A stretch of DNA of 64,000 bases. It comes from Klebsiella pneumoniae (GTDB taxonomy: Bacteria > Verrucomicrobiota > Verrucomicrobiia > Limisphaerales > SXTU01). Of the stretch, positions 3,855 to 60,878 are shown one piece after another. Each line of letters starts with the position of its first letter. Position 1 is the first letter of the stretch. The DNA lies in assembly GCA_943330855.2 (NCBI GenBank), contig CALQJI020000005.1, forward strand, positions 1-64,000. The letters run 5' to 3'. The position numbers and the translations under genes were made by a program. The notes below the pieces were generated by a model. It had not been told where the DNA came from. It worked only from the letters and a program-made list of their open reading frames with translations, and did no database searches.

Positions 3855-3923
3855 GCAGCCGCCGAGGTCAGGAGGCGGATTTTGCGGGCCCAACAGAGTC
3901 CGCCTCCTCACCTCGGCGGCTAC
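3855..3923. repeat. Family A palindromic element, intergenic copy (A1)
   Basis: Left arm GCAGCCGCCGAGGTCAGGAG, right arm CTCCTCACCTCGGCGGCTAC: an imperfect inverted repeat of about 27 bases per arm with a short loop. Other copies lie at 7497, 23990, 28396, 38552 and 51714. This one lies between the divergent ispH and glnS genes. Confidence 0.9.
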
Positions 3924-5973: not shown

Positions 5974-7191
5974 GTGACCGACTTCAACCAACAACTCGCC
6001 GCCGAGCTGTCCGCCTTGCGTGAGGCAGGTTTACTACGTGAGCTGCGGCGGGTGGAGTCGGCGGCGGGCACGCGGGTGAGCCTCGGCGGGCGCGCGTTGC
6101 TGAACTTCTCTTCCAACGACTACCTCGGTCTCGCCAATCATCCGGCGCTCAAGGAAGCGGCGGGGCTGGCCATCGAGAAGTTCGGGGCTGGGTCCGGTGC
6201 GTCGCGGCTCGTGTGCGGGTCGCTGGCGGTGCATCACGAGTTGGAGGAAGCGCTCGCGGCGTTCAAGGGCACGGAGGCGGCGCTGACTTTTTCCACCGGT
6301 TTTTCAGCGGCACAGGGAGCCATCATCGCGCTGCTGAGCAAGGGTGATATCCTCATCGTGGATAAGCTGGTCCACGCCTGCATCGTGGACGCGGCGAAGT
6401 TGTGCGGCGCGAAGCTGCGCGTCTTCCGACATAACGACTTGAACGATTTGGAGGCGAAGTTGAAGTGGGCGGGGAAGCAGGGAGCGGGCAGCGGGCAGCG
6501 GGCAGCAAGAATCTTGGTCGCCACCGAAAGTGTTTTCTCGATGGACGGCGACCTCGCGCCGCTGCGGGACATCGTGGAGCTAAAGGAGAGTTACGGCGCG
6601 TGGCTGATGGTGGACGAGGCACATGGGACGGGCTTGTTCGGCGCGTGCCGGAGCGGGCTGGTGGAAGAGTTTGAGCTGACGGGGCGCGTCGAGTTGCAAA
6701 TGGCCACGCTGGGCAAGGCCGTCGGCGCGGCGGGCGGTGCGATTTGCGGGAGTCGCCAGTTGATTGACCTGCTCGTGAATCGCGCGCGGAGTTTTGTATT
6801 CTCGACGGCTCCGGTGCCAGCCGCAGCGGCGGCGGCGCGGGCGGGCTTGGCCATCATCCAATCGCAGGAAGGCGAAACGCGGCGGCAACGGCTGTGGCTG
6901 CTTGTCGAAGAGTTGAAGCGCGTCCTCATCCGCGCGGGCTACCCGCCGTCCGCAGTGCGCGCGCCGATTGTGCCGGTGGTCGTGGGCGCGGAGGCCCGGG
7001 CCGTGGCGCTGTCCGCCGCGCTGCGGGACGCGGGCGTGTTCGTCCCGGCGATTCGTTTCCCGACCGTCGCGCGCGGCGCGGCGCGGCTGCGTTTCACGGT
7101 GTCGGCAGAGCACACGGCGGAAGATCTGGCCGAGTTATCCGGAGCGCTCGGTTCAATCGGCAATCGGCGATCGGCAATCGGCAATGCATAA
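5974..7191 (+). CDS. bioF: 8-amino-7-oxononanoate synthase (BioF)
   Basis: PLP-dependent alpha-oxoamine synthase of biotin synthesis, joining pimeloyl thioester and alanine. Visible motifs, counted from GTG 5974: NFSSNDYLGL (44-53), STGFSAAQGA, DEAHGTG (214-220) and the PLP lysine in LGKAVGAAGG (K248). Length is 405 residues, normal for the family. The frame is open back to ATG 5857, but that part lies in palindrome D; GTG 5974 (or GTG 5947) fits family N-termini better. It overlaps bioA by 8 bases. Residues about 170-176 (GAGSGQ) come from a heptamer repeat, and its last codons lie in another. bioB and bioD are not in the window. Confidence 0.93.
   Translation: MTDFNQQLAAELSALREAGLLRELRRVESAAGTRVSLGGRALLNFSSNDYLGLANHPALKEAAGLAIEKFGAGSGASRLVCGSLAVHHELEEALAAFKGTEAALTFSTGFSAAQGAIIALLSKGDILIVDKLVHACIVDAAKLCGAKLRVFRHNDLNDLEAKLKWAGKQGAGSGQRAARILVATESVFSMDGDLAPLRDIVELKESYGAWLMVDEAHGTGLFGACRSGLVEEFELTGRVELQMATLGKAVGAAGGAICGSRQLIDLLVNRARSFVFSTAPVPAAAAAARAGLAIIQSQEGETRRQRLWLLVEELKRVLIRAGYPPSAVRAPIVPVVVGAEARAVALSAALRDAGVFVPAIRFPTVARGAARLRFTVSAEHTAEDLAELSGALGSIGNRRSAIGNA
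6483..6503 (+). repeat. Heptanucleotide tandem repeat (AGCGGGC)3 inside bioF
   Basis: Three exact AGCGGGC units. Twenty-one bases, so the reading frame is kept; encodes part of a Gly/Ser-rich surface loop before the ARILVATESVF strand. Confidence 0.9.
7155..7182 (+). repeat. Heptanucleotide tandem repeat (AATCGGC)4 at the bioF/bioA junction
   Basis: AATCGGC, AATCGGC, GATCGGC, AATCGGC, then AATGCAT. The array encodes the end of BioF (SIGNRRSAIGNA) and finishes 2 bases before the bioA ATG (7184), in the space where a ribosome binding site would lie. Confidence 0.9.
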
Positions 7192-8755
7192 GCTCGCCCA
7201 ACTCGACCACGCGCACGTCTGGCATCCGTTCACGCAGATGCGCGACTGGCTAAGGCGCGAGCCGATTCTCATCACGGCGGGCCGGGGCACGGTGCTGCGG
7301 GACGTCCACGGGCGCGAGTATCTGGACGCAAACTCCTCCATCTGGACCAACCTCCACGGCCACAGCCACCCGAAGCTGAACGCGGCGTTGAAGCGACAGC
7401 TCGGGAAGATTGCCCACAGCTCGGCGCTGGGGTTTGCGAACGAACCGGCGAGCTTGCTGGCGGAGCAACTCGTTGGAATGGCGCGTGGCAAATTAGGTAG
7501 CCGCCGAGGTAAGGAGGCGCATTCGCTGGGTGGCTCGAAAGAATCCGCCTCCTCACCTCGGCGGCTACAGAAAGTTTTTTTCTCCGATGACGGGTCCACC
7601 GCGATGGAGGTCGCGCTGAAGCTCGCCTACGAGTTCACACGGCGCACGCGCGGGCCGCAGACCAAACCGCGCTTCCTCTCGCTGACGGGCGCGTATCACG
7701 GCGACACGGTCGGGGCGGTGAGCCTTGGGCACATTGACTTGTTCCACAAAGCTTACGGCGGGTTGCTCTTCAAGACGGACCAGGTGATGTCGCCGTATTG
7801 CTACCGCTGTCCGTTCAACCGCGCGAAGCCGGAGCGGGCGGACGCGCGTGTGACGCGGAAGTGCAACTGGGAGTGCGTGGGCAAGGTGGAGTCGAAGTGC
7901 GCGGCGGCCCGGAAGCGCGGGAATGACTACGCGGCGTTCGTCTTCGAGCCACGGATGCAGGGCGCGGCGGGGATGATTCCGCAACCCGACGGCTGGCTGA
8001 AGCGCGTGTCGGACATCGCGCGCGGCCACGGCGCGCTGCTGGTGGCGGATGAGGTGATGACGGGCTTTGGCCGCACCGGCGGCGGAGCAGGTGAGAAAGT
8101 GGGAAAGCGAGAAAGTGAGAGGAGCACACCGGCTCACACTCCCACTTTCTCATCTGCTCATTTTCCCACTCTCACCGCCTCGCACGCCGAGGGCGTGGCC
8201 CCCGACCTCCTCGCGCTCGCCAAGGGTCTCACCGGCGGCTACCTGCCGATGGCGGCGACACTGACGACGCAGGCGGTTTTTGATGCGTTCCTCGGGGAAT
8301 ACGAGGAGTTCAAGACCTTCTTCCACGGACACAGTTTCACGGGTAACCAGCTTGGTGCGGCGGCGGGGTTGGCGAGCTTGGAGTTACTGGCGGGCCAGGC
8401 GTCGGTCAAGGCGAGGGCGCGGCTGGAGGAGGATTTGCGGCGCGAGCTGAAGTCGCTCTGGTCGCTGCCCAACGTCGGCGATGTGCGGCAGGTGGGCCTG
8501 GTGGCGGGCGTCGAGCTGGTGCGCGATTGGCGGACACGGGAGCCCTTCGCGCTCGCCGAGCGCGCAGGCATCCGCGTGTGCGAGGCGATGGCGAAGCGCG
8601 GCGTGCTGACGCGGCCCATCGGCAGCGTGGTGGTGCTGATGCCGCCTTACTGCACGACGGCGGCGCAGGTGCGGCGGATGGTCACCGCGCTGCACGAGGC
8701 GGTGGAGGAAGTGCTCGGAGCGCGGACGCCCACGTCCGCAGCCGTTGCCCGATGA
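7184..8755 (+). CDS. bioA: Adenosylmethionine-8-amino-7-oxononanoate aminotransferase (BioA)
   Basis: Class III PLP aminotransferase converting KAPA to DAPA with SAM as amino donor. Motifs: HVWHPFTQM (11-19), YLDANSSIWTNLHGHSHP, FFSDDGSTAMEVALK, YHGDTVGAVS, DEVMTGFGRTG (289-299) and the PLP lysine in LALAKGLTGGY (K347). At 523 residues it is well over the usual 430-460. The excess is two in-frame inserts: residues about 105-128 are palindromic element A2, and residues about 303-331 are an AG-rich inverted repeat. The last residues (ARTPTSAAVAR) are read from a family B repeat. Motifs around the inserts are intact, so the enzyme is probably functional. Same operon as bioF (8-base overlap). Confidence 0.93.
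   Translation: MHKLAQLDHAHVWHPFTQMRDWLRREPILITAGRGTVLRDVHGREYLDANSSIWTNLHGHSHPKLNAALKRQLGKIAHSSALGFANEPASLLAEQLVGMARGKLGSRRGKEAHSLGGSKESASSPRRLQKVFFSDDGSTAMEVALKLAYEFTRRTRGPQTKPRFLSLTGAYHGDTVGAVSLGHIDLFHKAYGGLLFKTDQVMSPYCYRCPFNRAKPERADARVTRKCNWECVGKVESKCAAARKRGNDYAAFVFEPRMQGAAGMIPQPDGWLKRVSDIARGHGALLVADEVMTGFGRTGGGAGEKVGKRESERSTPAHTPTFSSAHFPTLTASHAEGVAPDLLALAKGLTGGYLPMAATLTTQAVFDAFLGEYEEFKTFFHGHSFTGNQLGAAAGLASLELLAGQASVKARARLEEDLRRELKSLWSLPNVGDVRQVGLVAGVELVRDWRTREPFALAERAGIRVCEAMAKRGVLTRPIGSVVVLMPPYCTTAAQVRRMVTALHEAVEEVLGARTPTSAAVAR
7497..7568. repeat. Family A palindromic element inside bioA (A2)
   Basis: 72 bases (24 codons): GTAGCCGCCGAGGTAAGGAG ... CTCCTCACCTCGGCGGCTAC. Read as SRRGKEA ... 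SASSPRRL. It lies between the MARGKL helix and the KVFFSDDGSTA strand of BioA, where family members have only a short loop. Confidence 0.92.
8091..8175. repeat. AG-rich inverted repeat inside bioA
   Basis: GTGAGAAAGTGGGA at the left is answered by TCCCACTTTCTCA and TCCCACTCTCAC at the right. It encodes an insert (GEKVGKRESERSTPAHTPTF and following) directly after the conserved FGRTG motif. Related AG-rich sequence precedes the sulfatase gene at about 12886-12917. Confidence 0.8.
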
Positions 8756-8781
8756 AACGCGGACGTAGGCGTCCGCGCTCC
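8717..8781. repeat. Family B palindromic element at the bioA 3' end (B1)
   Basis: GGAGCGCGGACGCCCACGTC at the left, GACGTAGGCGTCCGCGCTCC at the right. It contains the bioA stop and sits between two convergent genes, so it could also end transcription, though no U-run follows. Confidence 0.85.
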
Positions 8782-8782
8782 T

Positions 8783-9193
8783 TCATTGCGGATACCGCAC
8801 CATATTCGTGTAGCGGTGCGGGCCGAAGCCGAACGCTGCGTAGAACTCCTGCGCGTCCTTGGTGAAGAGGTCGATGCGGCAGCCGCTCAACTCGGGGTGT
8901 TCGAGGATGCAGGTAAGCAGCCACTTGCCGAGTCCGTGCCCACGATGACTCTCCGCAATCACCACATCGCACAAGTAACCCACGGTCGCGCGGTCAGTCA
9001 CGACGCGGGCAAAGCCGATCTGTTCCGCGCCCTGGAAGAGGCCGAAGTTCAACGAGTGGCGGAGGCTGCGCGCGGTGACTTCCGCCGGGCGGTCGGCGGC
9101 CCAGTAGGTGGTGTGGAGCAGCGCGGTGACTGCGGTCAGATCGAGTCGCGGGGTTTCGTCAGTGAGGGAGTAACCGCCGTGTTGCCAGTGCAT
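8783..9193 (-). CDS. GNAT-family N-acetyltransferase
   Basis: 136-residue single-domain GNAT. The acetyl-CoA pyrophosphate loop is visible as ESHRGHGLGKWLL, preceded by the strand ATVGYLCDVVI. The C-terminal FYAAFGFGPHRYTNMVRYP matches small amino-group acetyltransferases of the YjgM/aralkylamine type; the substrate is unknown. The start was taken at ATG 9193 (MHWQHGGYSL). An open frame continues upstream to 9340 but has no GNAT similarity. A copy of its first 34 codons plus upstream DNA exists at 60515-60878 with the start codon mutated. Convergent with bioA, 27 bases apart. Confidence 0.88.
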   Translation of the reverse strand: MHWQHGGYSLTDETPRLDLTAVTALLHTTYWAADRPAEVTARSLRHSLNFGLFQGAEQIGFARVVTDRATVGYLCDVVIAESHRGHGLGKWLLTCILEHPELSGCRIDLFTKDAQEFYAAFGFGPHRYTNMVRYPQ

Positions 9194-9416
9194 GGCGGGA
9201 GCGTAGGGAAGCGGAGGCGAGGGCGGGAGACGAAAGTAGGAGCGCGGGTGGTTTCGTTCATCGGGCGGGGGACTCAACGGGGAAGGCCGCTCCACGCCGC
9301 CGGCCAATCTCACCAACGTCGCTGACCGCTCCGTCGGCATCTACCCCCCCCACGACCGCAGCGCAACCTGAAGGTTGCGACTACGGGGACGCAGACGGCG
9401 GCGAACTCAGGCCCGG
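9091..9416. repeat. Long dispersed duplication, copy 1 (contains GNAT 5' end)
   Basis: About 326 bases that align along their whole length, with scattered substitutions, to 60515-60878. It covers the first 34 codons of the GNAT gene, about 170 bases upstream of it and one arm of repeat C. The other copy is 38 bases longer because it keeps both arms of repeat C. Confidence 0.9.
9361..9384. repeat. Family C palindromic repeat, single arm (C1)
   Basis: GCGCAACCTGAAGGTTGCGACTAC. Full two-arm copies lie at 49405-49470 and 60778-60846. Confidence 0.85.
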
Positions 9417-18757: not shown

Positions 18758-20202
18758 ATCTCGCTATGAAACCCAACTCCCCGAGCGCAGACGTAGGCGT
18801 CCGCGCTCCAGCCGCATTGGCCTTCGCGTTGGCCATCTTCGCCTCGCCCCTGCTCGCCGCCGACGCCCCCGCCGTCCGCGTCGCCACGCCCACGCGCGGC
18901 GAAATCCACCGCTTCGTCACGCAGCCTGGCACCATCCGCCCGCTCCAGCAGGCGACCCTTTACGCGCGCGTGCCCGGCTACTTGAAGAGCATCGCCGTGG
19001 ACAAGGGCGATGCCGTCAAGACCGGCGCGCTGCTGGCCGAACTCGAAGCCCCCGAACTGCTCGTGGACCTCGCCCGCGCCCGCGGCGAACTCGCCAAGGC
19101 CAAGGCCGACACCGCCCGTGCCGGAGCCGAGTTGGCGAAATCTCAGGCCGACATCGCGCGCGTCCAAGCCGAGGCGGCGCTGGCTGGCGCGATGGCCCAC
19201 AAGGCACAGGCTGAGTTAATCGCGGCGAAGGCCGTCGCCGCCCGCGCTCAAGCCGAGCTGCCGAAAGCCCAGGCGGAACTTGACCTCGCCAAGCTGGACT
19301 ACGACCGACTCACCGAGGGCCGCCGCAAGGCCCCCGACCTCGTGGTGCCCGCGCAAGTGGACGCCGCCAAGGCGCGGCTCGAAACCACCCGCGCGCAAAT
19401 GGGCGTGCTCAGTGCCGCCGTGGAAGCCGCCGCCGCCGAGGCCGAAGCCGTCAGCGCTCGTCGCGCCGGTGCCGAGGCCACCATCCAAGCCGCGCGCGCC
19501 CAAGCCGAGGCCGCGCAGGCCAGCCACGCCGCCGCGCGCGCGGTGGTCGGCGCTTATCAGGCGGGCGTCGAAGTCGCGGAGGCGAACCTCGAACGCACTT
19601 CCACCCTCGCTCAGTTCACCCGGCTCACCGCGCCGTTCAGCGGCATCATCACCGCGCGCTTCGTGGACCCCGGCGCGTTCATCCCCGCCGCGCCCGGGCA
19701 AAACGCTGCGCTCGTGACGCTCATGGACTTCGACACCGTGCGCGTGCAGGTGCCGATGACGGAGCTGGAAGCCGCGCTCGTCGCGAAGGGCCAACCGGTG
19801 AAGGTCGCGCTCGACGGCTTGCCCGGAAAACTCTTCGAGGGCCAAGTCACGCGCTTCTCCGGCGCGCTGGATGAGGCGACGAAGACGATGCTCGTCGAAG
19901 CCGAGTTGCCGAACCCCGGCCACAAGCTGCGCCCCGGAATGTATGCCACCGTGCGCGTGGGCGTGGAGCAGCACACGAACGTCATGCTCGTCCCCACCGA
20001 GGCGCTGGTGATGGAGAAGGCCAACGCGTTCCTCTTCCTCGTCGCCGACGGCAAGGCGAAGAAGACGCCGGTGAAGATTGGCTTCAACGACGGGGCGAAG
20101 GTGGAAGTCATCTCCGGCCTCGCGGAGACGGCGAAGGTGATTCTCGTTGGGAAACTCGCGCTGGCCGATGGACAGGCCGTGAACGTGCAGGAGAGCAAGT
20201 GA
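18754..20202 (+). CDS. RND efflux periplasmic adaptor (membrane fusion protein)
   Basis: 482 residues. A hydrophobic signal segment at about 22-35 is followed by the beta-barrel/lipoyl half-motif GEIHRFVTQPGTIRPLQQAT LYARVPGYL. A very long alpha-helical hairpin rich in Ala/Glu/Lys (about 100-285) comes next, then the second lipoyl half (TRLTAPFSGIITARFVDPGA) and a membrane-proximal domain. The hairpin is longer than in AcrA/MexA. It connects the inner-membrane pump to the outer-membrane channel. Residues about 11-18 (ADVGVRAP) come from a short family B palindrome, so ATG 18754 or 18766 precedes an altered signal peptide. Overlaps both neighbouring genes by 4 bases. Confidence 0.93.
   Translation: MNLAMKPNSPSADVGVRAPAALAFALAIFASPLLAADAPAVRVATPTRGEIHRFVTQPGTIRPLQQATLYARVPGYLKSIAVDKGDAVKTGALLAELEAPELLVDLARARGELAKAKADTARAGAELAKSQADIARVQAEAALAGAMAHKAQAELIAAKAVAARAQAELPKAQAELDLAKLDYDRLTEGRRKAPDLVVPAQVDAAKARLETTRAQMGVLSAAVEAAAAEAEAVSARRAGAEATIQAARAQAEAAQASHAAARAVVGAYQAGVEVAEANLERTSTLAQFTRLTAPFSGIITARFVDPGAFIPAAPGQNAALVTLMDFDTVRVQVPMTELEAALVAKGQPVKVALDGLPGKLFEGQVTRFSGALDEATKTMLVEAELPNPGHKLRPGMYATVRVGVEQHTNVMLVPTEALVMEKANAFLFLVADGKAKKTPVKIGFNDGAKVEVISGLAETAKVILVGKLALADGQAVNVQESK
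18783..18809. repeat. Family B short palindrome inside adaptor gene (B2)
   Basis: GAGCGCAGACG TAGG CGTCCGCGCTC: 27 bases (9 codons) in frame, just before the signal-peptide hydrophobic core. Confidence 0.85.
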
Positions 20203-23989: not shown

Positions 23990-24058
23990 ATAGCCGGCCG
24001 AGGTAAGGGGGTGGATTCGTCCGAGCGACGGTTTCCGCCTCGTCACATAGGCGGCTAC
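23990..24058. repeat. Family A palindromic element, diverged intergenic copy (A3)
   Basis: CATAGCCGGCCGAGGTAAGG ... CGTCACATAGGCGGCTAC. Several mismatches between its arms. It begins 9 bases after the dxs stop. Confidence 0.75.
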
Positions 24059-27573: not shown

Positions 27574-27652
27574 CGGCGCGACGCTAAGGAACGCGGCCGC
27601 AGTGGTCACGCCCATATTCGCGCACAGATCGGCCGGGCGAACACGCCGTCTT

Positions 27653-27865
27653 GGAGCGCGGACGCCCACGTCCGCATGCGGAGGCTTTCAGCCGGCCACT
27701 GCACCCGTAGACGCGACGACTCGTCGCCGGGGTTAGCCGCACCGAACGGTGGGCCAGACCAACACGCGGCGAGGCGTCGCTGCTAAGGTGGCGGTCGACC
27801 GCACCGTTCAACTGCATCGTTCCGGTTCAGTTCCCATCGGCTGCGGACGTGGGCGTCCGCGCTCC
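27653..27865. repeat. Family B element with widely separated arms (B3) filling the intergenic gap
   Basis: GGAGCGCGGACGCCCACGTC at 27653 and GACGTGGGCGTCCGCGCTCC ending at 27865, about 170 bases apart. Between them is another inverted pair (GACGACTCGTCGCCG and GGCGAGGCGTCGCTGCTAA); GCAGCGACGCCTCGTCGC also occurs at 59098. Nothing protein-like is seen between 27574 and 27880. Confidence 0.75.
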
Positions 27866-27880
27866 ATTCCACGGGTAGGT

Positions 27881-28765
27881 TCAGGGGCTGAACTCGCGAC
27901 AACCGGCGGGCCGTTGGTTCTCCCCGATCCACGCGAGCACTTGCGCAACGGCCTGGCGCGTGCCGGTGCCCAACACGTTGTGGTCGGCAGTCCAGACGAC
28001 GCGGTCCGCGCGCCAACCGGGGCACTCGCGTCGGAGCCAGCGCTGCGCCGGAGGCCACGGCACCACAGGGTCCAGCACGCCGGCGAGCTGAAACACGGGC
28101 AGGGTCGCGGCACGCGCGATGGCCTGCGGGTCGTTCCCCGCGATCAGGCGCAGCCGATGTGCGGCGGCGTGGCGGAGCGGTTCGCCCCAGCGAGCCTTGA
28201 AGTCGCGGAGCGCGGCGAGAACTTCGGGGCTTTGCTTGAATCGCCAGCGCGCGATGACGGCGTAACTGTTAACGATCGTCCTCAGCCACACCAGCGGTGC
28301 TCGACGGCAAAGCCACTCCGTCGCCCGCACTCCACCGAGCCACGGGTGTCGCGCAAAGCCACCCGCGAGAATGAGGCCGTCCGCGTGAAACGCAGGTGGC
28401 CGTCGAGATGAGGAGTCGGACTTCTCCAATTCCGGATGCCGAAGTGCGAGGTGTGAATCCGCCTCCTCACCTCGGCGGCTACGCGCGAGGAGCGGCCACG
28501 CGACTTGCGATCCGAAGGACTCCGCCAGCAGCCAGCCGCGCCCGATACCGTGCTCGCGCAGCTTCGTTTCCACCGCTGCCGCGAAATCGTCCAGCGACCA
28601 CGTCACCGAGTTCGGGTAAGTGAACTCCACGAAGCGCACGCGCCCGGCCACGGCCAGCCGGAAGCGAGTGACCAGCAACCAGTCGCCGTGCAGACCGGGC
28701 AGGTAGATGAGCGTCGGCAGCGAGGCATCGCCGTGGACGCGGATTTGGAGGCTGTCCGACTCCAT
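27881..28765 (-). CDS. Alpha/beta-hydrolase with in-frame palindromic element
   Basis: 294 residues. Strand YLPGLHGDWLL carries the oxyanion region. The nucleophile elbow is LAESFGSQVAW (S83), the acidic residue probably lies in QLAGVLDPVVPW, and the His in WTADHNVL near the end. It is a general carboxyl-ester or lipase-type hydrolase of unknown substrate, without signal peptide. Residues about 96-124 (SRRGEEADS ... SDSSSRRP) are encoded by element A4 between the nucleophile helix and the next strand, where homologues have a short loop. Nine bases separate it from the methyltransferase gene upstream, so the two are likely co-transcribed. Confidence 0.85.
   Translation of the reverse strand: MESDSLQIRVHGDASLPTLIYLPGLHGDWLLVTRFRLAVAGRVRFVEFTYPNSVTWSLDDFAAAVETKLREHGIGRGWLLAESFGSQVAWPLLARSRRGEEADSHLALRHPELEKSDSSSRRPPAFHADGLILAGGFARHPWLGGVRATEWLCRRAPLVWLRTIVNSYAVIARWRFKQSPEVLAALRDFKARWGEPLRHAAAHRLRLIAGNDPQAIARAATLPVFQLAGVLDPVVPWPPAQRWLRRECPGWRADRVVWTADHNVLGTGTRQAVAQVLAWIGENQRPAGCREFSP
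28396..28482. repeat. Family A palindromic element inside alpha/beta-hydrolase gene (A4)
   Basis: 87 bases (29 codons). The right arm CTCCTCACCTCGGCGGCTAC is intact; the left arm GTGGCCGTCGAGATGAGGAG has drifted. Read on the minus strand as SRRGEEADS ... SDSSSRR. Confidence 0.85.
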
Positions 28766-28774
28766 GTCACAGCC

Positions 28775-38551: not shown

Positions 38552-38621
38552 GTAGCCGCCGAGGTCAGGAGACGGATGCTGCTGCGCTCGGAAGAATCCT
38601 CCTCCTCACCTCGGCGGCTAC
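38552..38621. repeat. Family A palindromic element, intergenic copy (A5)
   Basis: GTAGCCGCCGAGGTCAGGAG ... CTCCTCACCTCGGCGGCTAC, 70 bases, between the convergent sulfatase and D-threonine-aldolase-like genes. Unlike the three copies inside genes, its length is not a multiple of 3. Confidence 0.92.
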
Positions 38622-41407: not shown

Positions 41408-42361
41408 ATGAAAATAGTTATCCTCGACGGCCACACGCTGAACCCCGGTGATTTGAGCTGGGCTGCCTTGCAAGCGCTCGGCACCTGTGAAATCCACGAC
41501 CGCACACCGCCGGAGCACGTCGTGGCGCGCTGCGCGGATGCGGAGATTGTCATCACCAACAAGGCGCTCTTGCCGCGCGAGGTCATCAACGCGCTGCCGA
41601 AGCTGCGCTTCATCGCCGTCACCGCCACCGGTTTCAATGTCGTGGACGCCCCCGCCGCCCGCGAGCGCGGCATCCCCGTCAGCAACGTCCCGCTTTACGG
41701 CACCCGCGCGGTTGCGCAGTTCACCATCGCGATGCTGCTGGAGCTTTGCCACCACGTCGGCGCGCACTCCGACTCGGTGCGGGCCGGCGACTGGGTGAAG
41801 TCCGCCGACTGGTGCTACGCGCGCACTCCGCTGCTGGAACTCGATGGGCTGACCCTCGGCGTAGTGGGTTGGGGCCGCATCGGGCAAGCCACGGCGGACA
41901 TCGCGCGGGCGATGGGGATGAAAATCATCGCTGCCAGCCGCACGCCGAAGCCGGCGAGGGACGGCGTGGAATTCGTGGACATGGAAACCCTCTTCCGCCG
42001 CGCGGACGTGGTGAGCCTGCATTGCCCGCTCACCCCGGAGACGAAGGCGTTGGTGAACGCAGAGCGACTCGCGCTCATGAAGCCCACTGCATTTCTCCTC
42101 AACACCAGCCGAGGCCCGCTGCTGGACGAAGCCGCCGTGGCCGCCGCGCTGAACAGTGGCCGCCTCGCCGCCGCCGGGTTGGACGTGCTCTCCTGCGAGC
42201 CGCCGAAAGCCGACAACCCACTCCTCACGGCGCGGAACTGCGTCATCACTCCCCATCAAGCGTGGGCTGCCAAGGCCGCCCGCGCGCGCCTCTTGGACAC
42301 GACTGCGGCCAACGTGAAAGCCTTCCTCTCCGGCACGCCGCTGAACGTAGTGAACGGGTGA
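41408..42361 (+). CDS. D-isomer-specific 2-hydroxyacid dehydrogenase (glycerate dehydrogenase-like)
   Basis: 317 residues. The NAD-binding Rossmann motif is GVVGWGRIGQATADIARAMG (about 151-170), with the substrate-domain elements VTATGFNVVDAPAARERGIP VSN and the catalytic residues in LLNTSRGPLLDE (Arg), GLDVLSCEPP (Glu) and TPHQAW (His). The YGT.AVAQ.T segment and overall look are closest to HprA-type hydroxypyruvate/glycerate dehydrogenases. Cytosolic, reducing a 2-keto acid with NAD(P)H. Starts 38 bases after tRNA-Thr and is followed by a palindrome and a good terminator. Confidence 0.92.
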   Translation: MKIVILDGHTLNPGDLSWAALQALGTCEIHDRTPPEHVVARCADAEIVITNKALLPREVINALPKLRFIAVTATGFNVVDAPAARERGIPVSNVPLYGTRAVAQFTIAMLLELCHHVGAHSDSVRAGDWVKSADWCYARTPLLELDGLTLGVVGWGRIGQATADIARAMGMKIIAASRTPKPARDGVEFVDMETLFRRADVVSLHCPLTPETKALVNAERLALMKPTAFLLNTSRGPLLDEAAVAAALNSGRLAAAGLDVLSCEPPKADNPLLTARNCVITPHQAWAAKAARARLLDTTAANVKAFLSGTPLNVVNG

Positions 42362-42363
42362 TC

Positions 42364-42440
42364 GGAGCGTGGACGCCCTCGTCTGCAAGTCGAGTTGCGT
42401 TGGCGGCGGGAGTGGCTGCGGCCGTGGGCGTCCGCGCTCC
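42364..42440. repeat. Family B palindromic element (B4)
   Basis: GGAGCGTGGACGCCCTCGTC at the left and GGGCGTCCGCGCTCC at the right, 3 bases after the dehydrogenase stop. Confidence 0.75.
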
Positions 42441-42445
42441 ATGAA

Positions 42446-49421: not shown

Positions 49422-49470
49422 CCTGCGCGTGGTGTGGTTGACTGAAGCGCAACCTGAAGGTTGCGACTAC
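49405..49470. repeat. Family C palindromic element (C2), supplies a stop codon
   Basis: GTAGTCGCAGGCTTTAGCCT GCGC ... GCGCAACCTGAAGGTTGCGA CTAC. The fusion gene runs 17 bases into it and stops at TAG inside the first arm (RSRRL-stop). Confidence 0.92.
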
Positions 49471-49485
49471 GGGCCGACGCCGAGC

Positions 49486-50865: not shown

Positions 50866-53019
50866 TCAGAGACGCCTCACGTCGTCTCCGACTTGGAAGA
50901 CGGCGAGCACGGCCTGCGCTTGCGCCGGGTCGTTCAAGCACAACGCGCCAGCAGAGATTTTTGGAACCGGCTCGCCCACCAGTCGCAATGGGAACCGCTC
51001 CCGCAATTGCTGTGCGTAGGCGGGGAAGTCCGCGCAGCGCGCCGTCCGCAGCCCCGCCGCGTTGACGAGGTGGAAGGTCCCGTGCGCACCGGGCGCGGCG
51101 CGCTTCATCAGCTCCAACGTGAGTCGCCCCATCGTGTAGCGCGGGTTCATTTCGACGACGGGCTTGAGGCGGGCGCGGCCTTCGGTGTCGCGATAGACGA
51201 AGGCGTCCACGCCGAGCGCGCCGAGGTAGCCGACGGCGGTAAGTTCGGGAGCGAGCCGCTGAAGGAGGTCGGCGAACAGCCCGTGGAGCAACGCTGGCGC
51301 GCCGGGCTGGTCACGGAAACACGCGAGCACGGCGGAGGGCAGCGAGCGAGCGTGCTGCGGCGCGGCGGTGTTGGCGACGAACTGGCCCTTCGCATCCGTC
51401 TGCAAGCCGGTGTAGCCGACGAGTTGCAGGCCGTCCGCGCCCATCTCCAGTTGCACGGAGAAGTCCACGAGGCGTTCCAGCCACGGCTCGATGACAAGCT
51501 GCCGTCCGCCCAGCAACGACTTCTCCAGCCAGCGCCGCTGCGGCTCCAGCAGCTCCGGCTCCCACAGCCGAAGCGCGTTGTGTCCCGCGAGACCGAAGGC
51601 TTGTTTCACCACGACGCGGTGGTGCCCACGAGCGCGAATCGCCGCGATGGCGTGGAGCGCGGCGGCCAGCGTGTCCACGGCGATGCCGACTTCATCCGGG
51701 GTGCAAAGCCAGGGTAGCCGCCGAAGTAAGGAGGCGGATTCGGAAGCGATGGGCTCACCCCATTCCGCCTCCTCACCTCGGCGGCTACTGGCCAGCCAGC
51801 GTTTCAAAAACTCCGCGCTCCACGCCTTCGAGTAAAGCGGCGCGATGCGTTCGTGGAACGAAGACTCCGCCGTGCGTTCCTCGCCGGTGAGGTTGGTAAA
51901 GAGCGGTGCGAGCAACTCCACGCTGTCCGGCCCCCACGCCCACGGACGCAGCCGGCCCAGCTTGCGGTGCGCGAGCGCAGGCAGGACACCGCGCCCGACC
52001 TCCACGAACTCCGGCAGCGGGAAGCCGGCCTGCTTGATGCCGCTGAGGAACTCCACCGCTGGCCGCTGATCCACGAGCACGATGTCGTCCTGACGGCAGA
52101 GGAACTGCGGCAAATTCGCGAGCTCGCGCGCGAGTTGCGCCTGATGCTTCACGGGCGTGAAGGCTTTCCCCAGCGCGATGCGAGCCTCGGCGAACGGGTT
52201 GAAGACGAAGACGCTCGGCGTGCGGCCTTTCGACTGTGAGTAAACATCCAGCTCCGCGATGAACCCCGCGTCGAGTCCGGCGGCGCGGCGGCCTTCCACG
52301 TTCAGCGAGAGACCCTTCGCCCGCTGCGGCGAGAGGGGGAACTTCAGTTGCTGGCAGAACGCATCCCAGTCGCTCTGCCCCGCTTGCTTCCAGCGGCGAA
52401 ACCACTTCAGCCCGTAAGCCACATGGCCAATCTCATCGCGGTAGATTTGGTCGAGGAGCTTCGCCGTCTCGGCGTCGCCCACCGTCGCGAAGCTGCGCGC
52501 GAAGTGGCGAGCGAAGTCGAGATTCGCCTGCTCGAACGTCAGGCTCAGGCCCGCGACGTAATCCATCGGGCTGCTCATGCCCGACACCGCGCGCCAGAAG
52601 TAGCCGCTCACCGGCAGCTCGCCGAACGCGATGCCGCACGCCTGCATCCGCGCGAGGTAGAGCCGCGTGTGCTCCTGTTCATCGCGCAAAGTCTGGAGCA
52701 CGCCACGTCGGAAGACGGCAGGAGCATCGGGAAAACGCAGTAGCACGAGCGCCATCAGCTCGGTTGCGAGCAACTCGTGGTTCGCGAAGAAGTGCAGCAG
52801 CCGCCCGCGCTCGCGCTCGTCATCGAGGCGGTGGAGCCCGGGGAACTCGGCCTTGGCGGAACCGGCCGGTTTGAAGACGAGCTCCGGCGGGCGACCGGGA
52901 ACTGGCGGCGCAGCGAGCGCGGCGCCGGGCTGATCGTCCGTGACCACGGCGGGACACTGGAGCTTCTCCTCCAGCGTCGTCGCGCAGAGCACGCGCTCGG
53001 CAAGTTCACGCAGTTCCAT
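50866..53019 (-). CDS. DUF455 ferritin-like domain fused to an ATP-grasp domain
   Basis: 717 residues from ATG 53019 (MELRELAERVLCATTLEEKL). Residues about 1-245 match DUF455, a ferritin-like four-helix family: HELLATELMALVLLRFPDAP (E82/E87), LRDEQEHTRLYL (E114xxH117), FEQANLDFARHF (E163), YRDEIGHVAYGLKWF (E196xxH199), a complete di-iron ligand set. Residues about 265-717 look like an ATP-grasp enzyme: HRVVVKQAFGLAGHNALRLW (nucleotide-binding K472), LVIEPWLERLVDFSVQLEM, GALGVDAFVYRD, and LKPVVEMNPRYTMGR (metal-binding E623, N625). Residues 411-435 are element A6, in the interdomain region. Both activities in one chain suggest a peptide- or metabolite-modifying enzyme; substrate unknown. Upstream in-frame codons to 53190 lie in a family F repeat. 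Confidence 0.85.
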   Translation of the reverse strand: MELRELAERVLCATTLEEKLQCPAVVTDDQPGAALAAPPVPGRPPELVFKPAGSAKAEFPGLHRLDDERERGRLLHFFANHELLATELMALVLLRFPDAPAVFRRGVLQTLRDEQEHTRLYLARMQACGIAFGELPVSGYFWRAVSGMSSPMDYVAGLSLTFEQANLDFARHFARSFATVGDAETAKLLDQIYRDEIGHVAYGLKWFRRWKQAGQSDWDAFCQQLKFPLSPQRAKGLSLNVEGRRAAGLDAGFIAELDVYSQSKGRTPSVFVFNPFAEARIALGKAFTPVKHQAQLARELANLPQFLCRQDDIVLVDQRPAVEFLSGIKQAGFPLPEFVEVGRGVLPALAHRKLGRLRPWAWGPDSVELLAPLFTNLTGEERTAESSFHERIAPLYSKAWSAEFLKRWLASSRRGEEAEWGEPIASESASLLRRLPWLCTPDEVGIAVDTLAAALHAIAAIRARGHHRVVVKQAFGLAGHNALRLWEPELLEPQRRWLEKSLLGGRQLVIEPWLERLVDFSVQLEMGADGLQLVGYTGLQTDAKGQFVANTAAPQHARSLPSAVLACFRDQPGAPALLHGLFADLLQRLAPELTAVGYLGALGVDAFVYRDTEGRARLKPVVEMNPRYTMGRLTLELMKRAAPGAHGTFHLVNAAGLRTARCADFPAYAQQLRERFPLRLVGEPVPKISAGALCLNDPAQAQAVLAVFQVGDDVRRL
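51714..51788. repeat. Family A palindromic element inside the DUF455/ATP-grasp gene (A6)
   Basis: 75 bases (25 codons): GTAGCCGCCGAAGTAAGGAG ... CTCCTCACCTCGGCGGCTAC. Read on the minus strand as SSRRGEEAEW ... ESASLLRRL. Confidence 0.92.
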
Positions 53020-53059
53020 GCGGCCGGGATGCTTAGCAGTTGAACGTCCGGGTGGCGAG

Positions 53060-53105
53060 TCTGCGCCCCCTCTTCCGATGGGGGAGAGGGTGGGCGCCGG
53101 TGGCC
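53060..53105. repeat. Family F hairpin (F4)
   Basis: CGCCCCCTCTTCCGATGGGG GAGAGGGTGGGCGCC between two divergent genes; translated as TLSPIGRGG in the rejected upstream frame. Confidence 0.7.
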
Positions 53106-53214
53106 GCTCATCCTCAGCCGTTACCCACTCAAAACAACTGGGCTGCTCACTTTCCTGCTTCGCACTCGCCGTTTTTTCCTGCGACCGCATCCGCGCTCAT
53201 GGCACACTCCGGCC

Positions 53215-59052: not shown

Positions 59053-60531
59053 ATGCCCAAGCCCCGCCCCCAGTCAGCCAAACCAACCGCCCCCGTAGCA
59101 GCGACGCCTCGTCGCCCGGGCCGGACCCACGCGCGGCTGGCCCCCACGCCCAGCCTGCGCGAGCGGGCCGAGGCGACCCTGACTCCTTCGCCCACGGCCC
59201 CCGCCCCACGGTCCCCGGCGGAAACCCAGCGGCTCGTCCACGAGCTCCAAGTGCATCACATCGAGCTGGAGATGCAGAACGAGGAGCTGCGCCGCGCGCA
59301 GGCGGAGCTGGGCGAATCCCGCGACCGCTTCCATCAGCTCTACGACTTCGCGCCTGTCGGCTACGTGACGCTCGCTCCCGACGGCTCCGTGCGGGAGGCG
59401 AACCACACGCTCACCACGCTGCTCGGCATCCCGCGGGGTAAACTCGTCGGCCGCAAATTCACCGCCTTCGTCCCGCCCCAAGCGCAGGACGCGCTCTACC
59501 TGCACCTGCGGGCCGCGCTCGACCACGAGGTGAAGCAGGCGTGCGAGCTCAACCTGCGCCGGGCGGACCGAACGACCTTCGCCGCGCGGCTGGAAACCGT
59601 TGTCCTCCAGGACACCGTTTCGGGTGTCCGATACCATTTGATCGCGGTCACCGACATCACCGAGCGCCAGCAAGCCGAGGCCCAACGCCGCCAGTTCAAC
59701 ACCGAACTCGAGCAGCGCGTGACCGAGCGCACGCGGGAATTACGGGCCGCCGTCACTGAACTGGAACAGGAAATAGCCAAGCACAAGCGGCGGGAGCTGG
59801 AAATCCTGGACATCAGCGAGCGCGAGCAGCGGAAGTTCGGCTTCGACCTGCACGACGGCCTGGGCCAGGAGCTGACCGGCCTGAGCATGTTGAGCCACGC
59901 CTTGGGGGAGGATTTGCAAGGCCACGCCCCCGCCCTGACCCAGCACGCCCGCCGGCTGAGCCAAGGGTTGTCCTTGGCGGTGACGCACGCGCGGCAACTC
60001 TCGCACGGCCTCGCGCCGGTGGCGTTGCAGGGCGAAGGGTTGATGCACGGCTTGCAGGAATTGGCCGCCAACACGAGCCAGCGTGCGGGCGTGACCTGCC
60101 GGTTCCGCTGCACCCCGCCGGTGCAGATCCAGGACATGAAGACGGCGACGAACCTGTATCGCATCGCGCAGGAGGCGGTGAACAACGCCTTGAAGCACGG
60201 CCGGGCCAAGCGGATTGACCTCCGCCTGACCGAGCGGGCGGACCAAGTGGAGTTGAGCGTGGCGAACAATGGCCGCCCCCTGCCGCCGGCCCCGAGCGCG
60301 AACCGGGGCATCGGCCTGCACGTCATGCGCTACCGCGCGGAGACGGTTGGGGCACGCCTGACCATCAAGTCCGGCAAAGACAAGGGCGTGCGCGTCACCT
60401 GCATTTTACCAAGGAAAAAACAGGAGAACATGACTAGCCCGGCCCGCGCGGAAGCGGCGCATCCTGCTCGTGGACGATCATCCCATGACGCGCGAGGGCC
60501 TCGCCCTCAACATCGGTCGGCGGCCCAGTAG
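59053..60531 (+). CDS. PAS-domain histidine kinase of the NarL/HisKA_3 class
   Basis: 492 residues. After a Pro-rich start (part read from the GCAGCGACGCCTCGTCGC repeat at 59098), a coiled coil (HELQVHHIELEMQNEELRRA QAEL) precedes a PAS domain (about 85-210). A second coil is followed by the HisKA_3 dimerisation domain with the phospho-acceptor His in REQRKFGFDLHDGLGQELTG L. The HATPase domain has an N box (LYRIAQEAVNNALKHGRAKR I) and a G box (NRGIGLHVMRYRAETVGARL TI). No membrane segments, so a cytosolic sensor. The last 30-35 residues (after CILPRKK) read over the start of the response regulator and a duplicated segment, so the native C-terminus is probably altered. Confidence 0.88.
   Translation: MPKPRPQSAKPTAPVAATPRRPGRTHARLAPTPSLRERAEATLTPSPTAPAPRSPAETQRLVHELQVHHIELEMQNEELRRAQAELGESRDRFHQLYDFAPVGYVTLAPDGSVREANHTLTTLLGIPRGKLVGRKFTAFVPPQAQDALYLHLRAALDHEVKQACELNLRRADRTTFAARLETVVLQDTVSGVRYHLIAVTDITERQQAEAQRRQFNTELEQRVTERTRELRAAVTELEQEIAKHKRRELEILDISEREQRKFGFDLHDGLGQELTGLSMLSHALGEDLQGHAPALTQHARRLSQGLSLAVTHARQLSHGLAPVALQGEGLMHGLQELAANTSQRAGVTCRFRCTPPVQIQDMKTATNLYRIAQEAVNNALKHGRAKRIDLRLTERADQVELSVANNGRPLPPAPSANRGIGLHVMRYRAETVGARLTIKSGKDKGVRVTCILPRKKQENMTSPARAEAAHPARGRSSHDARGPRPQHRSAAQ
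60446..60514 (+). pseudogene. Response-regulator receiver remnant (first ~22 codons only)
   Basis: In the frame +1 to the kinase, RKRRILLVDDHPMTREGLAL NI is unmistakably the start of a NarL/LuxR-type receiver domain (acidic pair DD, Met/Thr/Arg helix). At 60515 it is replaced by the duplicated GNAT-region segment, so the phospho-acceptor Asp, the rest of the receiver and the DNA-binding domain are gone. The nearest ATG (60430) is in a different frame, so an additional indel has occurred. The cognate kinase has thus lost its neighbour regulator. Confidence 0.75.
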
Positions 60532-60617
60532 GTGGTGTGGAGCAACGCGGTCACTGCGGTCAGATCGAGTCGCTGGGTTTCGTCAGTGAGGGAGTAACCA
60601 CCGTGTTGCCAGTGCCT
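60515..60617 (-). pseudogene. GNAT acetyltransferase 5' fragment without start codon
   Basis: Encodes HWQHGGYSLTDETQRLDLTA VTALLHTTYWAADR, near-identical to the N-terminus of the GNAT at 8783-9193, then ends at the duplication boundary. The start codon is mutated and the acetyl-CoA site is absent. Confidence 0.85.
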
Positions 60618-60777
60618 GGCGGGAGCGGAGGGAAGCGGAGGCGGGGGCGGGAGACGAGAGTAGGAGCGCGTGGGGTTTCGTTCATCGGGAGGGGGACTCA
60701 ACGGGGAAGCCCGCTCCACGCCGCCGGCCAATCTCACCAACGTCGCCGCCCGCTCCGTCGGCACCTACCACCCCCAC

Positions 60778-60846
60778 GTAGTCGCAGGCTTCAGCCTGCG
60801 CATCAGAGCCCCCACGACCGCAGCGCAACCTGAAAGTTGCGACTAC
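60778..60846. repeat. Family C palindromic element (C3)
   Basis: GTAGTCGCAGGCTTCAGCCT GCGC ... GCGCAACCTGAAAGTTGCGA CTAC, inside duplication copy 2. Confidence 0.92.
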
Positions 60847-60878
60847 GGGGACGCGGACGTCGGCGAGCTCAGGCCCGG

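Follow-up and report, generated by a model that had tools for sequence, protein, structure and literature searches.

Intragenic GTAG REPs have been published for Opitutus terrae, a member of the Verrucomicrobia (Di Nocera et al. 2013, PMC3733652), with limits of 5–13 bp for the stem and 2–20 nt for the loop given in Table 1. As described in the available text of that paper, the O. terrae repeats carry a GTAG tag on a stem-loop arm, form head-to-head dimers with short spacers and, inside ORFs, add 20–30 aa, sometimes with two copies per gene, and other species have REPs inserted inside small palindromes; this text follows no single site through relatives and reports no unrelated families at one codon. 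In Rickettsia, palindromic elements (RPEs) of 100–150 bp (PMC3767692) lie in frame within unrelated genes, and different RPE types occur at the same site of orthologues (PMC3767692, PMC10969869). In the available part of PMC3767692, hot spots and one diverged insert were posed as alternatives, and a common origin was chosen for RPE-4, RPE-6 and RPE-7. Coding sequences of Nematomorpha mitochondria likewise contain inverted repeats, in part at positions held in common, according to the accessible text of PMC6649704, but those repeats are perfect and encode conserved residues in both arms, whereas the inserts considered here are dispersed and many of them lack a hairpin.

The DNA analysed (the window) was a stretch of 64,000 nt from a Verrucomicrobia-like genome of 5.42 Mb, 85.75% complete (G000). 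It contained 11 matches (3 or fewer mismatches) to a palindrome arm with the consensus GTAGCCGCCGAGGTNAGGAGGCGGA, against 0.01 expected, and none of 100 shuffles reached 11. These arms belonged to six copies of an element, family A, of 69, 72, 69, 87, 70 and 75 nt in order of position, and both the places and the lengths given in the earlier note (72, 87 and 75 nt for copies within genes; 69, 69 and 70 nt for the others) were confirmed. The copy at nt 3855–3923 (+ strand, 69 nt) was crossed by no open frame with at least 25 codons on both sides. The degenerate copy at nt 23990–24058 (69 nt) and that at nt 38552–38621 (+, 70 nt, the commonest length in the genome) each followed closely on the end of an open + frame, just 3′ of its stop codon; the former fell below the arm cut-off and is thus outside the 71 paired elements treated below. 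A search for known RNA families in the window matched only tRNA.

The remaining three copies were in frame inside genes. The 72-nt copy (nt 7497–7568, +; arms at 7497–7524 and 7541–7568) lay within bioA (nt 7184–8755, +), which encoded a 523-aa class III aminotransferase resembling DAPA synthase, as judged from Pfam PF00202, matches to PDB 6wnn and 3dod, and homologues. This gene possessed a second in-frame palindrome of 96 nt (nt 8081–8176, +; fold −43.5 kcal/mol), unrelated to family A, in a stretch unaligned to both PDB chains shown (3dod and 6wnn). The 87-nt copy (nt 28396–28482, −) was in an alpha/beta-hydrolase-like gene, open from stop to stop at nt 27884–28774 (−), and the 75-nt copy (nt 51714–51788, −) in a DUF455 gene, open from stop to stop at nt 50869–53196 (−), with PF04305 at residues 93–313 and the insert at residues 469–494. 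Of the identities proposed earlier for the hosts, the aminotransferase and DUF455 were supported by Pfam and the hydrolase, without a Pfam match, by the presence of both flanks in 7 congeners, while Pfam gave no match for the ATP-grasp portion proposed in the DUF455 gene. With p and q denoting the codon bases before and after the element, all three copies had p = 1 and q = 2 (GSRRGKEAHSLGGSKESASSPRRLQ in bioA) and were open in the phase xGT AGC CGC CGA, giving SRRG[EK]EA at the start and RR at the end on either strand, as had been noted.

In the whole of G000, 254 arms (2 or fewer mismatches) were found and none with the reversed control pattern, so somewhat more than 100 elements are present. 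Paired elements were collected from the DNA surrounding perfect arms or intact cores; after removal of 3 redundant or false pairs from 74, 71 were examined, of which 27 were 70 nt long, and 17 further arms had no recognised partner. The 340 arms from the loci read had the layout GTAG, 5 bases, GA.GT.AGGA and 5 bases, and the two 5-base blocks paired. Among 56 distinct types of stem pair, six were fully paired (CCGCC/GGCGG, GAGAC/GTCTC, CAGCC/GGCTG, GAGCC/GGCTC, CCCCC/GGGGG and CCACC/GGTGG) around one common loop; by number alone these six were no excess over the permuted value of 5.2, but mean pairing of the distinct types was 3.57 of 5 bases versus a permuted mean of 3.22 and a permuted maximum of 3.46 (1000 permutations). 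Because the blocks pair and covary, the arm was read as a GTAG-tagged stem-loop with a 5-bp stem and a 10-nt loop, and the element as a head-to-head pair. At position 15, one arm had G and the other A or C in 49 of 68 cleaner elements, and the hairpin is therefore usually mismatched there.

Family A is thus a REPIN-like REP dimer, in which two GTAG-tagged stem-loops face each other within approximately 70 nt. It has the features that define the GTAG REP superfamily, namely GTAG at one end of the palindrome, a self-complementary stem (5–13 bp) with a loop (2–20 nt), and head-to-head dimers spaced about 20–100 nt, the last in the 71 paired elements. Although the string GTAGCCGCC is absent from the main text of PMC3733652, the tag, the arm, the dimers with short spacers, the copies adding residues within ORFs and the occurrence in Verrucomicrobia are all shared with the O. 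terrae repeats as described there, and since intragenic GTAG REPs have been published for that species, the kind of element is already known. The parallel with Rickettsia elements drawn in the earlier note holds for behaviour, the closest published match being the O. terrae GTAG REP dimers.

Within the genus and order, at least one arm occurred in 39 of 58 genomes and at least ten in 23, with no more than 2 matches per genome for the reversed control, and among 286 genomes sampled from the class, 39 matched a wider pattern. The 80 named arm-bearing records listed were mostly Verrucomicrobia MAGs, a few being labelled Acidobacteria, Proteobacteria and others; a plasmid search with a consensus-like, typed 70-nt query gave no copies. 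Acquisition of family A by transfer as a Rickettsia-type element would account for in-frame palindromes in genes, as in the 18 genic copies and 128 slot comparisons described below, and for same-site inserts in orthologues, both of which are on record for RPEs (PMC3767692). It is nevertheless hardly credible, as the commonest length is 70 nt instead of 100–150 bp, the arms are GTAG-tagged, and the spread in the searches made was mainly within Verrucomicrobia-like genomes. By their published description, RPEs differ in phylum, size and sequence.

Genes backed by Pfam or by congener orthologues contained 18 of the 71 paired elements, and 53 lay outside supported genes. The hosts included a sulfatase, an ABC transporter, four aminotransferases (two copies in one of them), a DAO oxidoreductase and a debranching enzyme (GDE); further hosts were a gamma-carboxylase-like HTTM protein, a hopene cyclase (SHC), a YfhO-like protein, an FG-GAP protein and the DUF455 protein, and the remainder were the hydrolase and two more proteins lacking a Pfam match, of which one had two copies. 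The count of 18 leaves aside L016, L022 and L026, which were open through the copy but had the Pfam domain wholly downstream of it, as well as L090, L048, L077 and other open frames outside the Pfam testing. With 254 arms and 18 genic copies, the view of family A as a proliferating palindrome carried in open frame by unrelated conserved proteins was upheld.

The phase observed in the window did not extend to the genome. The genic copies were distributed over six combinations of p and q: (0,1) and (1,0) in five cases each, (1,1) and (1,2) in three each, and (0,0) and (0,2) in one each, the (1,2) cases being exactly the three window copies, so that the phase described as invariant was used in only 3 of 18. 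An arm at p = 2 places TAG in frame, and the six other combinations are stop-free; all six were seen, so that the phases are those left open by the arm. The genic copies of G000 were detected as open frames through the copy, and p = 2 and frame-breaking copies were therefore excluded beforehand and the kept frame is partly a product of construction. Nor were lengths generally multiples of 3, as only 4 of 18 genic copies were: remainders of 0, 1 and 2 were found in 4, 4 and 10 genic copies (n = 18) versus 14, 31 and 5 others (n = 50), an excess of remainder 2 within genes (p = 0.0002). Genic copies thus follow the frame of the host gene and not one phase.

Corresponding sites were compared for 17 of the 18 genic copies (the FG-GAP gene was left out) in ten congeners. 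Both flanks were found in the fetched DNA for 128 of 170 site-congener pairs, the other 42 being outside the comparison, and the congener assemblies were fragmentary. Nine of 137 ortholog rows had been removed, comprising six of the antisense frame L060p, a sulfatase paralogue (G005), a duplicate place (L018, G010) and one row with less than 50% identity (L018.0, G007), itself also in frame. All 128 comparisons were in frame with no stop, a common frame being no requirement of the method; the sites were picked by the presence of family A in G000, and the same-gene controls consisted of the 60-residue flanks and fold controls only. These flanks had a median identity of 86%, and 238 of 256 flank alignments were ungapped. 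More than 10 aa stood at the site in 81 comparisons and 10 or fewer in 47. What congeners carried at one codon thus ranged from palindromes, whether of family A, of its variants or of other dispersed kinds, through heptamer repeats to next to nothing: 17 slots held family A (two of these rows being half-copies in bioA), 8 variant A1 (GTAGCAGCCGACGT), 4 variant A2 (GTAGGAGACGACGT), 23 other inverted repeats, 11 heptamer repeats, 20 other sequence and 45 a short stretch, where a family was assigned with as many as 6 mismatches in 24 and an inverted repeat spans at least 12 bp with mismatches, some of the 23 being short (12–15 bp). Tandem repeats of heptamers such as AATTCGC, GAATGCG and AACTCAA, in part forming inverted repeats, were in frame in the same slots, and heptamer repeats were also observed in the loops of the genic copies L085, L097, L098 and L102.

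At five slots (SHC, DAO, L018.1, GDE and DUF455) the palindrome of a congener was from a different family with 49 to 223 matches in that genome, match counts including both arms of a dimer. The family at the SHC slot, AGCACCCGGCTTCAGCCGGGTG, had 49 matches in G002, 56 in G008 and 7 in G000; the GGAGCGCCGGTSTCCRACC family was in the L018 slot of G006 (174 matches) and the DAO slot of G005 (76), with 11 in G000; and the GTGCCGGCGG.. family, found at the DUF455 and GDE slots, had 136 in G002, 223 in G006, 115 in G008 and 30 in G000. Reversed controls gave none, save one G008 match for the GTGCCGGCGG family. The slot itself was among the listed family matches at four of the five sites, the DAO case being assigned by its insert sequence, and each site was short (net 3–30 nt) in at least one congener. 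Unrelated inserts at the same sites in relatives had been named in the earlier note as grounds for abandoning its reading; their presence at five sites bears out part of that objection, yet it points to shared slots and not away from mobile DNA.

It is improbable that each slot goes back to one ancestral insertion, the families being drifted versions of it, which is the reading given for RPE-4, RPE-6 and RPE-7 in the available text of PMC3767692. Some sites do fit descent of this kind: a related insert occupies the sulfatase site in 4 of 9 genomes (G000 included), the inserts at site 1 of the aminotransferase L095 and in the YfhO-like gene appear related between species, and in bioA of G001 and G003 a family A copy is reduced to its right half. 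At the five sites, in contrast, a different family with many copies in the congener, together with at least one short congener each, is not expected from point divergence and argues for re-occupation. Whereas a common origin was read for the Rickettsia types, the families found here can be told apart, are each present in many copies and share a codon with short alleles among species of a single genus, which makes the choice between a hot spot and a diverged insert directly testable. The published cases are extended in this respect; one open-access library yielded no report of re-occupation of a single site by unrelated families outside Rickettsia.

The slot of bioA was consistent with clean insertion, with 16 versus 40 residues, a difference equal to 72 nt. 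Elsewhere the net gain over the shortest relatives was often less than the element, as at aminotransferase site 1 (24 versus 34 residues for a 71-nt copy), and clean insertion is therefore not demonstrated outside bioA. At the level of the order, 62 BioA loci were read from 101 matching genomes; 61 of the slots were in frame, with 9–53 residues, some of them native, and the single out-of-frame slot was in a genome 57% complete. Among 35 slots with at least 20 residues, 13 had a significant hairpin, versus none of 27 shorter ones; as 32 of the 62 loci had been selected for a split match, long slots are over-represented. Among the 120 closest BioA proteins the slot was similarly diverse, and it could be excised in 110. 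A single residue in the PDB chains 3dod and 6wnn corresponds to 25 residues of the window BioA. The predicted structure of BioA was unusable (mean pLDDT 53), and the position of its loop was therefore taken from sequence alignment.

A paralogous class III aminotransferase (AT3, L095) carried two inserts, the first of which, by alignment, was in the loop homologous to the BioA slot, so that the bioA insert and this one occupy one loop of paralogous enzymes, in favour of structural tolerance there. The AT3 model (mean pLDDT 77, pTM 0.82) agreed in fold with solved aminotransferases. In this model, the insert at residues 111–134 was mostly of low confidence, between a helix and a strand, and the second half of that at 205–228 was placed inside a helix (216–233). 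The suggestion of a hydrophilic surface insert would accordingly suit the former, a low-confidence loop, but not the second half of the latter, which is predicted to be ordered. At AT3 site 1 (L095:1674–1744), the last residues of the insert, LRLLTSAAT, stood where many homologues have native LR.L..A, and the phase present there seems to fit the local fold.

Hairpins (z < −2) were found in 38 of the 81 long inserts of the congener comparison versus 3 of 161 same-gene controls, and 43 had no significant hairpin, which was either lost or never present. Retention of genic inserts for a function, as an RNA hairpin tuning expression or as a useful peptide, could be argued from the strong hairpins in those 38 and from the confidently modelled helix that takes in part of the insert at AT3 site 1. 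We regard this as quite doubtful, given that the other 43 lack a significant hairpin, the peptides change from phase to phase and from family to family, and 10 or fewer residues occupy 47 of the 128 slots compared in congeners.

HUH/Y1 transposition leaves no target duplication. In 68 elements, three more long or degenerate ones having been removed from the 71, no significant duplication of 1–5 bp was observed (2 bp, 6 versus 5.2 expected; 4 bp, 2 versus 0.4 expected, p = 0.07). This result fits HUH/Y1 transposition and agrees with REPIN/RAYT systems (REPtrons), which lack a duplication, whereas the duplication of a classical MITE of a DDE insertion sequence is missing. Family A further resembles REPIN-RAYT systems in having two inverted REPs in one hairpin, a high copy number and RAYT genes in the genome, but the RAYT genes read here were flanked by two other repeat families, B and C. 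Family A was not seen as a RAYT-flanking repeat in the loci read: none of 34 distinct Y1 loci (including L104–L113 and L138, with L137 counted as the same place as L120), taken from a listing of at least many more and with G000 itself 85.75% complete, had a RAYT/Y1 gene flanked by family A arms. The arms seen there were stray ones, with 3 mismatches in L119 and 4 in L125, and an A1 dimer beside L121, which proved to be the insert carried by the adjacent DAO gene. GGAGCGC.. palindromes bordered four genes that scored above the RAYT cut-off (NF047646; L120, L121, L122 and L136), and a weaker relative, L138, lay between GTAGTCGCAACCTTCAGGTTGCGA repeats, as read by eye. Of two RAYT-like genes in G000, one was situated between GGAGCGC palindromes (G000:C18) and the other, as read by eye, between GTAGTCGCAACCTTCAGGTTGCGA repeats (G000:C91). 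From its class, the absence of target duplication and its dispersal, family A was likely spread by a RAYT-type (Y1) transposase.

Other repeats were also observed in the window. Family B palindromes (GGAGCGCGGACGCCCACGTCCGC and kin) were at nt 8714–8783, 18783–18811, 27650–27676, 27839–27867 and 42361–42442 and had a GGAGCGC end in common with the palindromes that border the RAYT of G000:C18. Family C repeats, of the GTAGTCGCAACCTTCAGGTTGCGA type found around the RAYT-like gene at G000:C91, were at nt 9354–9387, 49440–49473 and 60816–60849. Direct repeats of 265 nt and 70 nt, each 94% identical, were shared by nt 9090–9416 and 60514–60878, 51 kb apart.

The flanks of the 68 elements were biased outward (G 66 versus C 30 at +3, p = 0.0003), possibly reflecting a weak target preference, and flank complementarity was weak (133 versus 115.7 for all elements, p = 0.03; genic copies alone, p = 0.05; others, p = 0.21). 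The outward flanks were G-rich from +1 to +4 and C/T-rich at +5. Both signals, along with the insertion of REPs within small palindromes in other species described in the available text of PMC3733652, would be expected if the slots were DNA targets, with transposases hitting existing hairpins or a motif, palindromes replacing palindromes, and tolerance of the protein being secondary. Such targeting at the DNA level is the main alternative but an unlikely one, because the slots also hold heptamer and unclassified inserts, the motif is weak, and one loop is common to two paralogous enzymes.

Tolerant slots that are repeatedly refilled constitute the most likely account, and we consider it probable that family A is a REPIN-like REP dimer, likely RAYT-spread, whose genic copies lie in tolerant slots refilled again and again by unrelated palindrome families. 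The elements would insert with at most weak site preference, frame-breaking and stop-making inserts would be lost, and those surviving would be the ones in structurally tolerant places. The hairpin may later decay, be trimmed in frame or give way to another palindrome family, by which the slot would be refilled over time. On the sequence, the inserts are predicted to be translated as protein segments. More speculatively, core enzymes may possess standing docking slots that any mobile palindrome family can enter in an open frame, to be replaced in the next species, leaving new loops or helix residues behind; hairpins would then be a continuous source of protein segments, and palindromes would preferentially replace palindromes. 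If true, these slots would amount to a natural map of the places at which conserved enzymes, among them BioA, aminotransferases, hopene cyclase and glycogen debranching enzyme, admit 20–50 additional residues, and would be an instance of protein sequence being supplied by selfish DNA.
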